Shown here one piece after another: positions 1-8,885 of a DNA stretch of 47,833 nucleotides; the stretch's first letter is position 1, and the number at the start of each line of letters is the position of its first letter. Origin of the DNA: Dehalococcoidia bacterium (GTDB lineage Bacteria > Chloroflexota > Dehalococcoidia > CAUJGQ01); NCBI GenBank assembly GCA_035310145.1, contig DATGEL010000130.1, forward strand, positions 1 through 47,833, given 5' to 3'. A program made the position numbers and the translations under genes. The notes beneath the pieces were generated by a model. The model did no database searches. It was not told the DNA's origin and saw nothing but the letters and a program-made list of their open reading frames with translations.

Positions 1-131
1 GCCACCGACCCCACCCGCGATCCCGACGGCTGCCTGGATCAATCCGCCGTTCCCGCTGCCTGAGGAGGTGACGACGATGCCAGAGTGAATCCTCCGCTAA
101 TTTTCCCAACGGGTGGTCTCAACAAGGTTGA

Positions 132-449
132 CAGGTTCCGCCGGAGTTCCGTGACCATGCGAGAGCGTATGCGAACGGTACTACCGTCCTGCATATGAGT
201 AGCAAGGCATTGCCTCAGTACGAACTGGTGCTACCCCCGACCAACAGTCCGCTGCTTGGCCGATACGGGTTCCACACCGAGCCAATCCTTGAGCTGGGTG
301 ATTCGAACGCAAGCGAGTCAGCCACGCTCGCGGCCGTCCGCGACGCGCTGCTACCGAAGCTGCTGTCGGGCGAGTTGCGAGTGGGCGAGGCCGCCGGGCT
401 CGTCGGAATGCCGCCAGCCTCGACCGCTGCGGGCAGGAGGCCATCATGA
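132..449 (+). pseudogene. hsdS: hsdS C-terminal remnant (type I restriction specificity subunit)
   Basis: The frame is open from just after a TGA at 129-131 to a stop at 447-449. It reads as the end of an HsdS subunit: a target-recognition-domain-like stretch (HARAYANGTTVLHMSSKAL, then YELVLPP) followed by the family's C-terminal signature (TLAAVRDALLPKLLSGELRV). Intact HsdS proteins are about 400 residues with two target recognition domains; only about 105 residues remain here and no start codon with a ribosome site precedes them. An ATG at 195 could start an 84-aa peptide, but it lies inside the conserved part. HsdS would direct DNA recognition by the HsdM2S and HsdR2M2S complexes. No upstream portion was found in any frame of bases 1-131, so the gene is truncated or recombined. 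Assignment is from motif memory and fairly secure; the loss of function is inferred. Confidence 0.72.
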
Positions 450-588: not shown

Positions 589-1329
589 ATGGTCGATAAA
601 AGGCGATATCCGCGGCCGCCGATTCGAGAGGCGTTGCTCGACCTGCGGGTCGAGTTGCCCGCTGATACGCCACTCGATGCCCTGGCGGCCTTGCAGGAAG
701 GCGAAGAGCACAGATACCCGGCTCTCAACTCGCGCATGCAGATGCACGGCCGCTTTACGGTGGGGGCTCAGGTCGCGGCTGAAGCGCTCTCAACGCCAGT
801 CGGGTACACCTTCACGAGCGAGGACGAACGACAGATTTTCCAGGCACGGTTGGACGGCTTTACCTTCCATCGACTGGCGCCCTACAGCCAGTGGCCCGAC
901 TTTCGCCAGGAGGCGCACCGGCTCTGGACGGTCTACCGCGAGCGGCTGCATCCGATAACCGTCACAAGGATCGCTCTCCGCTACGTGAACCGTCTTGACC
1001 TGCCCGAGACGATCCGAGACTTGAAGGAGTACCTGCGCACCGTGCCGGAGGTGTCGCCTGATTTGCCGCATGGGCTGACGGGGTATCTGATGCAGTTGCA
1101 GATGCCACAGGACAATGCAGGCACGATGCTCATTTTGAACGAAGCAATTGTGTCGCCTCCGCGGCCGAACGTGACCTCAGTGCTGCTCGATCTGGAACTT
1201 ATGCGCCCACTCCAGAGCACACCGGACGAGGCACAGCTCTGGCAGATGATCGAGGAACTGCACGACCTGATGTACGTAGGGTTCGAGGCGTCGATCACCG
1301 ATCGGACAAGAAATGAGGTAATGACCTGA
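589..1329 (+). CDS. TIGR04255 family protein
   Basis: A 246-residue soluble protein matching the TIGR04255 pattern. The N-terminus has a PRPPIREALLDLR motif (family form 'sPpI.EalcefR'), the centre has VTRIALRYVNRLDLP, and the C-terminus has LHDLMYVGFEASITD. No signal peptide or membrane segment is seen. The family is full length here but its biochemical role is not established; members are common in defence islands and near restriction systems. It starts a three-gene unit whose members overlap as TGATG, so they are probably translated from one mRNA. The cassette sits between a broken hsdS and an intact hsdR, the position where type I loci often carry extra defence genes. The family call is from recognised motifs; a defence role is inference. 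Confidence 0.72.
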   Translation: MVDKRRYPRPPIREALLDLRVELPADTPLDALAALQEGEEHRYPALNSRMQMHGRFTVGAQVAAEALSTPVGYTFTSEDERQIFQARLDGFTFHRLAPYSQWPDFRQEAHRLWTVYRERLHPITVTRIALRYVNRLDLPETIRDLKEYLRTVPEVSPDLPHGLTGYLMQLQMPQDNAGTMLILNEAIVSPPRPNVTSVLLDLELMRPLQSTPDEAQLWQMIEELHDLMYVGFEASITDRTRNEVMT

Positions 1330-1631
1330 TGCCTGCATTATTAGAAAAGCGCTCACTGGTCGGCTGGCCTGTCATTCAGCGGCCGCTCCAGTCCGATGAC
1401 AGTGCGGCTCCGCAGAGCGTGGACGGCCGCGAATTGGCGGCGCGGATCGACCAGGCACAGGCTCAACTAGCCGAGCCCGCCGAGGCGTGGGGCGAACTGG
1501 CAGACGAAATCGACGACTTTGACTATCGGCCAATGCCACCGAAGCGATTCTTTACCATGAGGGTCAGGATGCGCCGCCCGGAACGCGGCCGCCCGATGCC
1601 GTTCGTCTTTGATGACGACGATATCGACTGA
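1329..1631 (+). CDS. Hypothetical 100-aa protein, middle gene of TIGR04255 cassette
   Basis: The start codon overlaps the previous stop (TGATG at 1327-1331) and its own stop overlaps the next start in the same way, which strongly supports it as a real, translationally coupled gene. The protein is about 100 residues with a likely helical central segment (ELAARIDQAQAQLAEPAEAW), a basic patch (RVRMRRPERGRP) and a very acidic C-terminus ending DDDDID. I do not recognise a family. The helical segment and small size would fit an adaptor or antitoxin-like partner of the flanking proteins, but nothing in the sequence proves this. Confidence 0.6.
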   Translation: MPALLEKRSLVGWPVIQRPLQSDDSAAPQSVDGRELAARIDQAQAQLAEPAEAWGELADEIDDFDYRPMPPKRFFTMRVRMRRPERGRPMPFVFDDDDID

Positions 1632-2164
1632 TGATCCAGCCATGGTGGGAGCGCATCGGTGGACCGGGCTTGGCTCAAGGGGATCTGCTGCCCGACTGTA
1701 TCGTCCCCATAATGCCGCCCGATTACGAGCCACCTCTGCTGGATGACGAAGGGGACTACACTTTTGGTGGAGCAGTCTTCGACCTAATCATCATCACTCA
1801 GAGCTGTGATCTGGAGAACGACAAGGCGCCGCTGGTTGCAACCTGTCCGATTTTCACGATCGCTGACTACGAACGGGAAAATGAGGCGTTCAAGCGAAAG
1901 GGACGCTGGGAGCAGGTGCGCAAGGGCCAGATTGAAGGACTGTATCTGTTGGCATCGCCGGATGAACCGGACGACAACCGCAAAGCTCAGGTCGCGGACT
2001 TCCACCAGATCTACAGCCTACCGGTTGGCTATCTCATTAACCATACCGCCCGCTTGGGAAGCCGCTGGCGGCTGCGCTCGCCATACCTTGAGCACTATTC
2101 GCAAGCCTTTGCTCGCTTCTTTATGCGAGTCGGGCTGCCGTCGGATCTGCCGCCGTTCAGGTAG
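1631..2164 (+). CDS. Hypothetical protein, third gene of TIGR04255 cassette
   Basis: A 177-residue soluble protein whose ATG overlaps the preceding TGA. The most distinctive stretch is a hydrophobic strand leading into a Cys-Asp motif (FDLIIITQSCDLEND, about residues 50-65), followed by VATCPIF. The 'ITQSCDLE' pattern recurs, as I recall, in uncharacterised proteins next to TIGR04255 genes; I cannot name a domain with confidence. There is no signal peptide or membrane segment. The aromatic-rich C-terminus (YLEHYSQAFARFFMRVGLP) looks like an amphipathic helix. It ends 39 bases before hsdR. The coding DNA looks less GC-rich than hsdR, suggesting the cassette was acquired as a unit. Confidence 0.6.
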   Translation: MIQPWWERIGGPGLAQGDLLPDCIVPIMPPDYEPPLLDDEGDYTFGGAVFDLIIITQSCDLENDKAPLVATCPIFTIADYERENEAFKRKGRWEQVRKGQIEGLYLLASPDEPDDNRKAQVADFHQIYSLPVGYLINHTARLGSRWRLRSPYLEHYSQAFARFFMRVGLPSDLPPFR

Positions 2165-2203: not shown

Positions 2204-5275
<3,072 letters not shown>

Positions 5276-5412: not shown

Positions 5413-5877
5413 TCAGCCACGCCGCCGGTGGTCCTTCAGCACCTCCTCGGCGATGGCGAGGGCCTCGGCCTCGGACAGACCATACTTATCGGCTTCTCGC
5501 CGGGCGATGGTGTACAGCTCTTCCTTGACATTGACCGTCTTCGCACCGTCCAGGCCAAAGAGATCGGCTTCCCGGTGCATGAGGCTGATGATACGGTCGA
5601 TGCTGAACAGCTTGCCCTTCATCGCCTCCGGCCAGAGCACGCCGATCAGCCGATCGATGCGCGCGGCCATGATCTGCCGCCGCTCCTCGACCTCATCGGA
5701 CGGGTGGCGTGCCAGCGACCGCTTGACCGCTTTGCGGGCTCCGGAAGCGTCGCAGTAGTGCAGCTCGCGGGCGATCTGCTTGTAGCCCATGCCCTCGATG
5801 CGGAGCACGGCCGCGCAGTCCTCTTTGTCCCAGCGCAGGCGCAGTTTGTCCTCGTTTGTCAGCGCACCTTCGTTCAT
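5413..5877 (-). CDS. Phage-type HTH protein, terminase small subunit-like
   Basis: About 154 residues from the ATG at 5877 (a GTG at 5898 would add seven residues; an AGAGAGG stretch precedes the ATG). The N-terminal half looks like a helix-turn-helix (GYKQIARELHYCD, then GARKAVKRSL), and the C-terminal half resembles the family with RIDRLIGVLWPEAMKG and LMHREADLFGLDG. These are typical of phage-associated proteins often placed as small terminase or packaging/regulatory proteins. The last segment (LSEAEALAIAEEVLKDHRRR) is a charged helix. It lies downstream of the primase gene on the same strand, 200 bases apart, which supports a mobile-element origin. No large terminase, portal or capsid gene is present, so packaging function is unproven; a simple DNA-binding regulator is an alternative. 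Confidence 0.55.
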   Translation of the reverse strand: MNEGALTNEDKLRLRWDKEDCAAVLRIEGMGYKQIARELHYCDASGARKAVKRSLARHPSDEVEERRQIMAARIDRLIGVLWPEAMKGKLFSIDRIISLMHREADLFGLDGAKTVNVKEELYTIARREADKYGLSEAEALAIAEEVLKDHRRRG

Positions 5878-6077
5878 GGTCTTCACCGCCTCTCTCACTC
5901 ATGACGCCCTAAGCGCGTCCCACTGCGTCATCTTCCCGCCCGCGGCCGGCTTCCTTGCCCTGCGCCCGATCTGCCCCAACGGCTCGTCCATCCGTGCACT
6001 GGCTTCAAGCCGGTGCGCGGGTTGCTGTCTTGGCCGGTTCAGAACGTGATGCCGTTCAGGATGTGTCCTCCCCATCG

Positions 6078-8885
6078 CTATGCTGCCAGCGCCTCACGTG
6101 CATTGGCGGCAACCCGGCGCGGCCGGCAGCGTACCGGACAGACCACACGCAGCACACTGCCCGTTGACTCGCCGCAATCGGCGCACCAACGCAAGTCGCA
6201 GAGGTAGCAGACAGCGCCCGGTGCGACGACGACTCCGTGCGGGCAGGCCGAGTCGGCGGTGTCGGCCGCCTGCGGTTCATCCCTCGCGGGGGCAGCGTAA
6301 TTCGAAGAGTCGGCGGAACGATCGTCAGCGTCGTCAGCACCGTCAGCCGGCTCGATTTCACGCCTGCGTTCGCCGCCGCTGCTGACGATCCCCTGGATAC
6401 TGCTGACAATCCCCTGTGCGCCATCGTAAGCGGGATCGTTAGCGTTGTGGCCGCGCTGCACGCCTGCTTGCGCCGCTGCCGACGGTGCTGACGATGCGGA
6501 CGGTGGGTCCGCCGCCTTCTCCACCAGGCTCAGGTGAATCGTCCGGGCACCGGCGTGCCCCTTTCGCGCGAACTGCACGCCGATCCCGATCGTGAGCAGG
6601 TTGGGTTCCAGCCGCTTGAGCGCATTGGAGAGCGCGTTGGCTGCGGCGGGCCAACCGCGCGGCGAGCGTTGCCGCTCTGCTTCGGGCAGACGTACCCGCA
6701 GCTCGTCCAGCAGATCCCGCGCCGTGCCCTGCCAGCCGTCGGCCCCGGCCGCCTGCACAAGCGCCTGAAGCGGCACAACCAGGGGCGACGCTTCGAGAGG
6801 CAGGGCGGCGCCTTCGTCGCGGTTGTCACCGTAAGCGTTCTCGAAGTCGTTCCCGGTCCAGCCGAGCGCGGGGGCCACGGCCACGCCCCAGTGAGCGAAG
6901 TCCGCCATGCGGAATGGCCGGGACACTGAGACAGCGGACGCATTCCGCAGCCCGATAGCAACCGCGTCGAACAGCGCGCCGAGGATGCTGGGCTGCCCTC
7001 GCGCGAAGTCCAACCAGAACTCCCGCTCCGGCGTGACCTGCTCAAGCCGGGGCGGCTCGATGAAAATGCTGCGATCGAGCAGGTCGCTGCGCTCCACGAA
7101 GTCTGTGATCCCGGTCATGAGCAGGGGGCGCACGGCGTCGAAGACCTGCTCTTCGTCATCGGTGTAGAGGGCGCGCACCCCCAGCCCGCCGCCTGTGCTG
7201 AGCCGGCAGAGGCCATCCGAGAGCCAACCGGGCAGGTGGCTGAAGTTGTCGAAGACGAGGAGGTGCGAGCCACGCGCGACCACCGCAAGATCGCGGAGTT
7301 CGCGCGGCTCCGCCCGCAGCGTGAGCGTCGCCGGGTCGGTCAACTCCTTCGCCACGCGGGCGGTGGTGCTCTTGGCGCGACCCTGGCCACCACGCAGTAC
7401 CAGCACGGGATACGGTCCCTGCCCCAGCAGGGCGTAGCTCAACCAGGTGACGAAGAGCCGGAAGCTCGCGTCCTCGCCGACGTTGACGAACCGGCGCAAG
7501 GCGGCGATGGCCCCGCCCGTCACCGGCTCTGGCAGCGCCCGCAGTGTGGGCGACCGCCAGAAGCGGACCGGCGTGTCCGCGATCGAAACCAGCCGCCAGC
7601 CGGTCCTGTCGATCTCGGCGCAGCGCCAGCGGGCGTCGCCGAGATCAAGGAAGACCTTCCCATCGCAGGATGCCACCCGGAGGAAGACGGCGCGCTCTGG
7701 GCCATCGTGGAGCGCACGGCCTTCCAGAACGCCGAGCGTGTCCTGCACGGCCTGGGCACGCGGACTCGTGCCTTCGGTTTTGTAGCAGAGCGCGGCGAGC
7801 CAGGTACGAAACCCCTTCGACCGCAGCGGCTGCGTCTCCGTGTGGTCATCACGGCGGAAGCTGGCAAAGGCCCGCCCGTCTGGCGTATGGAACAGCTCGA
7901 CCTGCATCTGCTCGGCGAGTTGCACCAGGCGCGTCGCCTGCGATGGGGGGCGCGCGGCGGCTGCTCCCGGCGCAGGCCCGGATGCCGCCGCCGTTCCCGG
8001 CTCCCGGTCACTGGCGAAGCTCGCGACCCAGTCTGTCCAGGTCGGCGCCGCCGCCATCGCCGCGCGCACGTCCTCGGCGGTGTGTCCGTCCGCCAGGTAG
8101 TCCGCGATGTCGCCCTTTTCCTTCACGTCTGGCAACTCCACCACGCGCACTTCGGCGGCGATGCCGGTGAGCGCCGCGCCGACGTGCTGCATCAGACCAC
8201 GACCGGGCGCATCATTGTCGGGGAAAAGGTAGACGCGGCGGCCGCACAGCGGTTCAAGCGCCATGCCGAAGTCGCGCTGCTCTGCGCCACCACCCAGCGA
8301 GACGGCGACGAAGCCTGCGCCTCGTGCGGCATCGGCGCACTTTTCTCCTTCATGGAGTTGCACGTCGGCTCCAGCGGGAGCAGCAAGCAGCTCCAGCAGG
8401 CGGTACAGCGGCAAGCCGCTGATCGTCACCGGCTGGCCGTTCACTCCCTCCCACGGCATGGTCTTGCCGCCGTCCGGCTTGACAATACGCGCATGGGTGG
8501 CACGGAGTGCGCCATCTGCAGCGCGGTACTCGTGGCGCGTGGCGTCGGTTGCGAGCGCGGGTGTGCGCGAAGTCGGCACCCTCACCTTCTGCAGCTTCCG
8601 GCGCTGGCCGGTATAGCGTCCGACTGGCCAGTAGCCCCGCGCGCGCAGTACGTCGATCACTGATTGCTGAAGACAGCCGGCGTGGCAGCGCACGAGCACC
8701 CGCCCATCCCGCTCGGTCACGCTCAAGCTGGGATGCGTATCCTGGTGCTTCGGACAATGGGCCTTCTGGCCAGCCGGACGTTGGCAATCGCAGCGGGCAC
8801 GCTCGCAGCGCAGTGCCGCGCGAATCGTTGGTGCATCCGGGCGGTTGGTCGGGTTATTGTCGAAGGGTTGGAATTGTGCAACCAT
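6078..8885 (-). CDS. Mobile-element DNA primase/replicative helicase with Toprim and AAA-type ATPase
   Basis: A 935-residue multidomain protein with a well-placed start: GGAGA stands shortly before the ATG at 8885. Domains in order: a Cys/His zinc-binding module like that of DnaG primases (residues about 26-75, ending RCHAGC); a Toprim fold with EGEKCADA and DNDAPGRG (about 175-240), the acidic residues used for metal-dependent primer synthesis; then an ATPase with the unusual P-loop GGQGRAKST (about 495), in which Ala replaces the usual Gly before Lys, a form seen in element-encoded primase-helicases. The C-terminal tail holds two CxxC pairs and further Cys residues (about 883-925), a second zinc finger. 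Such proteins initiate replication of phages and integrative plasmid-like elements. It is the longest gene of the element block and appears intact. Confidence 0.75.
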   Translation of the reverse strand: MVAQFQPFDNNPTNRPDAPTIRAALRCERARCDCQRPAGQKAHCPKHQDTHPSLSVTERDGRVLVRCHAGCLQQSVIDVLRARGYWPVGRYTGQRRKLQKVRVPTSRTPALATDATRHEYRAADGALRATHARIVKPDGGKTMPWEGVNGQPVTISGLPLYRLLELLAAPAGADVQLHEGEKCADAARGAGFVAVSLGGGAEQRDFGMALEPLCGRRVYLFPDNDAPGRGLMQHVGAALTGIAAEVRVVELPDVKEKGDIADYLADGHTAEDVRAAMAAAPTWTDWVASFASDREPGTAAASGPAPGAAAARPPSQATRLVQLAEQMQVELFHTPDGRAFASFRRDDHTETQPLRSKGFRTWLAALCYKTEGTSPRAQAVQDTLGVLEGRALHDGPERAVFLRVASCDGKVFLDLGDARWRCAEIDRTGWRLVSIADTPVRFWRSPTLRALPEPVTGGAIAALRRFVNVGEDASFRLFVTWLSYALLGQGPYPVLVLRGGQGRAKSTTARVAKELTDPATLTLRAEPRELRDLAVVARGSHLLVFDNFSHLPGWLSDGLCRLSTGGGLGVRALYTDDEEQVFDAVRPLLMTGITDFVERSDLLDRSIFIEPPRLEQVTPEREFWLDFARGQPSILGALFDAVAIGLRNASAVSVSRPFRMADFAHWGVAVAPALGWTGNDFENAYGDNRDEGAALPLEASPLVVPLQALVQAAGADGWQGTARDLLDELRVRLPEAERQRSPRGWPAAANALSNALKRLEPNLLTIGIGVQFARKGHAGARTIHLSLVEKAADPPSASSAPSAAAQAGVQRGHNANDPAYDGAQGIVSSIQGIVSSGGERRREIEPADGADDADDRSADSSNYAAPARDEPQAADTADSACPHGVVVAPGAVCYLCDLRWCADCGESTGSVLRVVCPVRCRPRRVAANAREALAA

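Follow-up and report, generated by a model that had tools for sequence, protein, structure and literature searches.

A conserved three-gene cassette joining TIGR04255 proteins, a small two-ended protein and a protein of predicted MazF/CcdB fold: a candidate toxin-antitoxin-like conflict module

Three short genes at positions 589 to 2,164 of the window (that is, of the whole stretch of DNA analysed here, 47,833 nucleotides long, which is one entire contig, C130, of a 5.32-Mb assembly from a Dehalococcoidia bacterium with a listed completeness of 99.8%) make up a cassette that is a real, conserved and unnamed unit. The interpretation favoured here, which we consider reasonably likely, is that this unit is a toxin-antitoxin-like conflict module, in which the third protein (p177) would be the effector, the small middle protein (mid) an antitoxin or adaptor, and the first, a TIGR04255 protein, an exchangeable sensor or chaperone. 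The order of the genes, their conservation as a unit and the exchange of the first genes are all observed directly and speak for this interpretation, as does the fold of p177, which is predicted.

All three genes lie on the forward strand. The first (589-1329) encodes a TIGR04255 family protein of 246 residues, which scores 129.6 bits against that NCBIfam model (cut-off 30; E 1.6e-37); the second (1329-1631) encodes mid, of 100 residues, and the third (1631-2164) p177, of 177 residues. Each junction is a TGATG with a one-base overlap, CCTGATGCC at 1327-1331 and CGACTGATGATCC at 1629-1633. The coupling and the family assignment were both as an earlier note, made from the sequence alone, had read them, as was its statement that two of the proteins have no known function; neither mid nor p177 gave a meaningful score with Pfam, NCBIfam or PADLOC. 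The same note had judged the cassette to be lower in GC than hsdR, and this too proved correct (60.0% against 69.3%); the value is the second lowest among 463 segments of the same size across the contig, and GC3 for the cassette genes is 0.69-0.75, as against 0.92. A search at this copy of the cassette for an operator-like palindrome or a clear promoter found none.

As regards the setting, the cassette had been described as lying inside a restriction locus, between hsdS and hsdR. The downstream half of this description stands: an intact hsdR gene (2204-5275, forward strand; 1023 residues; TIGR00348 E 1.3e-175, and REase_I in PADLOC) starts 39 bases past the cassette. Upstream, however, there is only a C-terminal remnant of HsdS (about 131-449, forward strand; found by tblastn to plasmid records annotated as restriction endonuclease subunit S, E 6e-7), with an in-frame stop codon just before it, and the contig begins upstream of this remnant, at base 1. 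Profiles for HsdS (PF01420, Methylase_S) and HsdM (PF02384, N6_Mtase) found no match in the whole 5.3-Mb assembly, so that the type I system of this host is probably dead, or else its missing part fell in the gap before base 1. Downstream of hsdR, on the reverse strand, lie a small unnamed gene (5413-5898) and a gene for a 935-residue protein (6078-8885) that looks primase-like by eye, having a zinc-binding-like N-terminus; the two suggest an integrated element next to the restriction remnant.

A profile built from eight members of the p177 family confirmed 299 relatives in genome contigs, the best 80 of which were retained. These 80 come from Planctomycetes, Cyanobacteria, Acidobacteria, Burkholderiales, Actinobacteria, Firmicutes, Zixibacteria and Chloroflexota and, on the archaeal side, from ANME-2, other Methanosarcinales and Heimdallarchaeota. 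Within the phylum of the host p177 is present in 11 of 301 genomes, and TIGR04255 in 15 of 201. A few predicted viral contigs also carry p177, in some cases beside tail and lysin genes, as would be the case for prophage cargo; searches of GenBank phage and PLSDB plasmid records with several queries found none. When TIGR04255 was scored with a profile built from the p177 loci themselves, it was found directly upstream of p177 on the same strand in 59 of the 90 non-redundant loci that had room for it, the gap between the two always being filled by one short ORF; because these loci were picked by their similarity to p177, such figures describe the neighbourhood of p177 rather than that of TIGR04255. 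A mid ORF precedes p177 in 89 of the 90, overlapping it (as through the TGATG of the window) or lying close to it, and a small partner gene so placed is what the cassette has in common with type II toxin-antitoxin systems. Dozens of genomes from many phyla have the three families in this order, which is therefore not private to the present one, and neither the 100- nor the 177-residue protein resembles a housekeeping protein; neither of the two outcomes that the earlier note had named as fatal to its proposal was thus observed.

The middle protein has two ends with separate allegiances. A profile made from the last 50 residues of 11 mid ORFs, when applied to the 8,220 six-frame ORFs of all loci, picked out 36 at E<=1e-3 (its own 11 seeds included), every one of them directly upstream of p177 and none elsewhere; later rounds raised this to 54 matches, plus two in cases where the start of p177 had been set too far upstream. 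In the window this conserved tail, a proposed p177 binder, is DYRPMPPKRFFTMRVRMRRPERGRPMPFVFDDDDID (1521-1628, forward strand), while the consensus for the clade to which the window belongs is VPPKRsfxvrvRYxxxGrgkPlPydlDeE. The N-terminal part behaves otherwise. The form QGxEGRxL, seen in the window as QSVDGREL (1413-1436, forward strand), was matched in 25 of 36 mids beside window-type TIGR04255 proteins and in none of 53 others, and DxSSvxPxF in 13 of 23 mids beside distant, largely archaeal TIGR04255 proteins and in one of 66 others, although these regular expressions were written after the sequences had been viewed, so that the counts illustrate the pattern and do not test it. In loci lacking a first gene the N-terminus of mid differs again, and in some of these (L061 and L023, in our numbering of the loci) it resembles VapB or RHH antitoxins at E about 0.02, which is below significance. 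In one further locus of this kind (L089:6994-7968) the C-terminal tail of mid is fused to a tetratricopeptide-repeat protein with five repeats, directly upstream of p177. In these sequence comparisons the tail of mid goes with p177, and its N-terminal part changes with the first gene; the two would then be its docking segments.

That the first gene is exchanged is clear from the loci themselves. The mid-p177 pair follows a DUF6941 gene in L104:7052-8519, L109:6999-8570 and L110:7003-8564 (PF22091 is above its cut-off in L104 and L109, while L110 was assigned by similarity); L104 is from a Bacillota genome, whereas L109 and L110 are predicted prophages in which the cassette sits after a lysin gene. 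Elsewhere the pair follows a second, unnamed family of first genes (L074, L083, L086, L090) or single other genes (L017, L106), and it occurs also with no first gene at all. An hhalign comparison of TIGR04255 with the alternative first-gene family gave no support for a relation between them. On the p177 tree the state of the first gene needs at least 16 changes, of which well supported branches force only two.

The TIGR04255 protein itself gave no Pfam match. Its AlphaFold2 model (pLDDT 94.6) looks like two beta4-5-alpha repeats, that is, a duplicated alpha+beta fold, with weak matches to the catalytic C-domain of guanido kinases (Z 9.2) and to TATA-binding-protein-like folds (Z about 7); the order of the strands had raised the idea of a SecB-like protein, but SecB was not among the matches listed in the structure comparison. 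A search of PDB sequences with both the TIGR04255 and the p177 profiles found nothing significant, and a search by name for TIGR04255 and DUF6941 in one full-text library found no paper.

TIGR04255 genes also head operons of other kinds, in which the genes that follow are HEPN-like, of HTH type or small ones of another sort. In L115:1471-3316 and L124:1360-3055 the gene that follows, in one arrangement after a 204-residue gene, is HEPN-like (by PF05168 at E 0.003 in L115 and by eye in L124) and possibly encodes a toxin. A second three-gene type of operon consists of TIGR04255 and a recurrent unnamed pair, a 'WxxYxAxP' protein and an 'RRIxPxH' protein of 100-150 residues (L116:1483-3252, L117:1486-3220, L121:1489-3419, L125:979-3223 and L128:1106-2156). 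In L113:641-2265, L127:648-2313 and L122:731-2298 TIGR04255 overlaps a downstream gene of 250-290 residues, which is HTH/Xre-like in L113 and L127.

The structure of p177 was predicted from an alignment of 87 members. The AlphaFold2 model has a mean pLDDT of 93.4, and the best matches in the PDB found by Foldseek are MazF proteins (4mdx, E 7.8e-4, probability 1.00); VIA gave Z 11.4 against MazF-mt3 (5hk0; rmsd 3.0 over 107 residues) and Z 9.9 against CcdB. Among the matches listed, MazF, Kid and CcdB proteins appear almost exclusively, and the best matches in viral structure models are likewise PemK/MazF proteins, among them PemK-like proteins of phages. At the level of sequence the picture is different: the PF02452 profile hit none of the 87 members of the p177 alignment at E 0.1, and hhalign of p177 with 20 PemK proteins returned a probability of 0.85%, which is no support. 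The catalytic pair of MazF is Arg25 and Thr48 (PMC7354611); in the weak and unreliable hhalign register the p177 columns that match these are not Arg and Thr, which means that the chemistry of p177 may differ, or that it may not be a nuclease. In its model, then, p177 has the MazF/CcdB fold without detectable sequence similarity to MazF, and for these reasons it is so described and kept out of PF02452. Two further points separate it from MazEF/PemIK, with which it shares the SH3-like barrel (in the model) and a small, overlapping, acidic-tailed partner gene just upstream: it is 60-70 residues longer, with a conserved C-terminal helix, and there is often a third gene. In the same way the fold is common to CcdB, but that protein has 101 residues and poisons gyrase, and no sequence similarity between the two has been established. 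Of the 87 members, 69 match PHROG 4575, a family of unknown function.

Conservation within the p177 family could be read quite otherwise. Q16, G17, Q57, C59, D60, L148, P151, E154, R166, L169 and P170 are invariant, and D18, C72, H105 (a Y in the window protein) and H155, with others, nearly so; the C59-D60 pair, taken with C72, H105 and H155, resembles a reactive site, and this, together with the fact that the weak alignment does not keep the MazF pair, would suit a non-toxin enzyme. The tail of mid might, for instance, be recognised or processed by p177 as a cysteine-dependent hydrolase or transferase, the whole set then being a regulatory or post-translational system. We regard this as rather improbable, given that the structure matches place the MazF/CcdB fold almost only in toxins, and that a patchy distribution, carriage on prophages and decay of p177 are all a better fit for a costly effector. 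The decay in question was seen in L045:7980-8354, L066:7995-8513 and L070:3439-3984, where stops or frameshifts interrupt p177 (assembly errors being possible) while mid is intact; TIGR04255 is intact too in L045 and L066, and L070 has none. Such decay fits what would be expected of a costly effector.

Returning to the neighbourhood of the cassette, roughly 10 of about 90 loci adjoin type I restriction genes or Hma-like genes (methylase, helicase, AAA-ATPase), whereas most copies stand alone or among unrelated genes, outside restriction loci. The order HsdS tail, cassette, HsdR recurs in two Planctomycetes (L028 and L054, where HsdR is 58-60% identical to that of the window); in a cyanobacterium (L046) an HsdS tail precedes TIGR04255, L034 has a two-gene form flanked by an HsdR-like gene on one side and hsdS on the other, and next to L060, L090 and L095 there are large genes of the Hma-like kind, for methylase, helicase and ATPase. 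No recurring neighbour dominates, hsdR-type and Hma-type genes recurring in few loci. For genes no more than 2.5 kb away the number of PADLOC families matched was 193, and for genes 4.5-7.5 kb away it was 61, an excess that, being drawn from totals in which the members are not itemised, is no more than suggestive; the three cassette proteins themselves gave nothing above noise against PADLOC. A restriction locus is a recurrent but untypical home for the cassette. The earlier suggestion of a possible new defence module survives in part, in that a conflict system of some kind becomes more likely given the toxin-like fold predicted for p177, but no defence library contains the genes of the cassette, and the majority of copies stand by themselves or have unrelated neighbours.

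These same loci bear on the comparison with PrrC, which provides the precedent for an effector embedded in a restriction locus, namely that of EcoprrI, of type IC (PMC3874165). The earlier note had proposed an embedded anti-phage gene of this sort, and the position within an hsd locus, here and in L028 and L054, does match. It could be imagined that the Hsd complex, or else TIGR04255, keeps p177 silent and lets it go once restriction is blocked by a phage, the cassette acting as an abortive-infection module that guards restriction, and the arrangements in L046 and L034 would also suit this. We think it likewise rather improbable, because restriction genes are absent near most copies, an hsd locus not being the typical setting of the family, and because the cassette is intact here in an assembly that has no HsdM or HsdS hit, implying that a working type I enzyme is not needed for it to persist. 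PrrC is, moreover, a single ATP-binding anticodon nuclease, unlike a set of three unrelated small proteins found mostly outside hsd loci.

The toxin-antitoxin-like interpretation can be given a more specific form by analogy with CmdTAC, an anti-phage system in which a SecB-like chaperone holds the antitoxin until a phage capsid protein draws the chaperone off, thereby freeing an RNA-modifying toxin (PMC11618068). On this model the tail of mid would bind and restrain the p177 toxin, while its N-terminus would bind the first protein, here TIGR04255, which would stabilise mid or sense a trigger. A phage product or a stress might then draw TIGR04255 away, so that mid would fail and p177 would be freed to arrest growth, most likely through RNA or translation; where there is no first gene, mid and p177 might work by themselves as a simple toxin-antitoxin pair. 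TAC systems likewise comprise a toxin, a small antitoxin and a third protein, and they share the third protein between different types of toxin; TIGR04255, which precedes both mid-p177 pairs and the HEPN-like, HTH and other small genes mentioned above, would parallel this if those genes encode toxins. There are differences, however: the third protein here is a TIGR04255 protein, not recognised as SecB, the gene order is not the same, and TAC toxins are of the ADP-ribosyltransferase, HigB or MqsR types, where p177 would have the MazF fold.

A simpler possibility is that of a selfish addiction cassette with no role in defence, settling in islands by chance, for which the scattered distribution, the many unrelated neighbours and the low GC relative to the host could all be cited. 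Swappable first genes nevertheless look like sensor inputs, which simple addiction would not need, and for this reason we consider it unlikely, though a little less so than the two alternatives already discussed. It must be remembered that these explanations are not wholly separate: an addiction module is itself a toxin-antitoxin system, only one without input from phage or stress.

Taken further, the toxin-antitoxin-like interpretation leads to a broader proposal, which we put forward tentatively and which may well turn out otherwise: that the cassette represents an undescribed modular class, found in bacteria and archaea, in which swappable sensors (TIGR04255, DUF6941 and others) are combined with a small two-ended adaptor holding an effector that is a new member of the MazF fold, TIGR04255 acting besides as a general antiviral or stress input to several further effectors, HEPN proteins among them. 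Pfam, NCBIfam and PADLOC seem to have missed this toxin-fold family, although its bacterial and archaeal members number in the hundreds, and for TIGR04255 and DUF6941 there is now a role that can be tested. Should the first protein indeed be a sensor, its repeated exchange beside a constant effector would make the cassette a simple system for asking how immune inputs are rewired.
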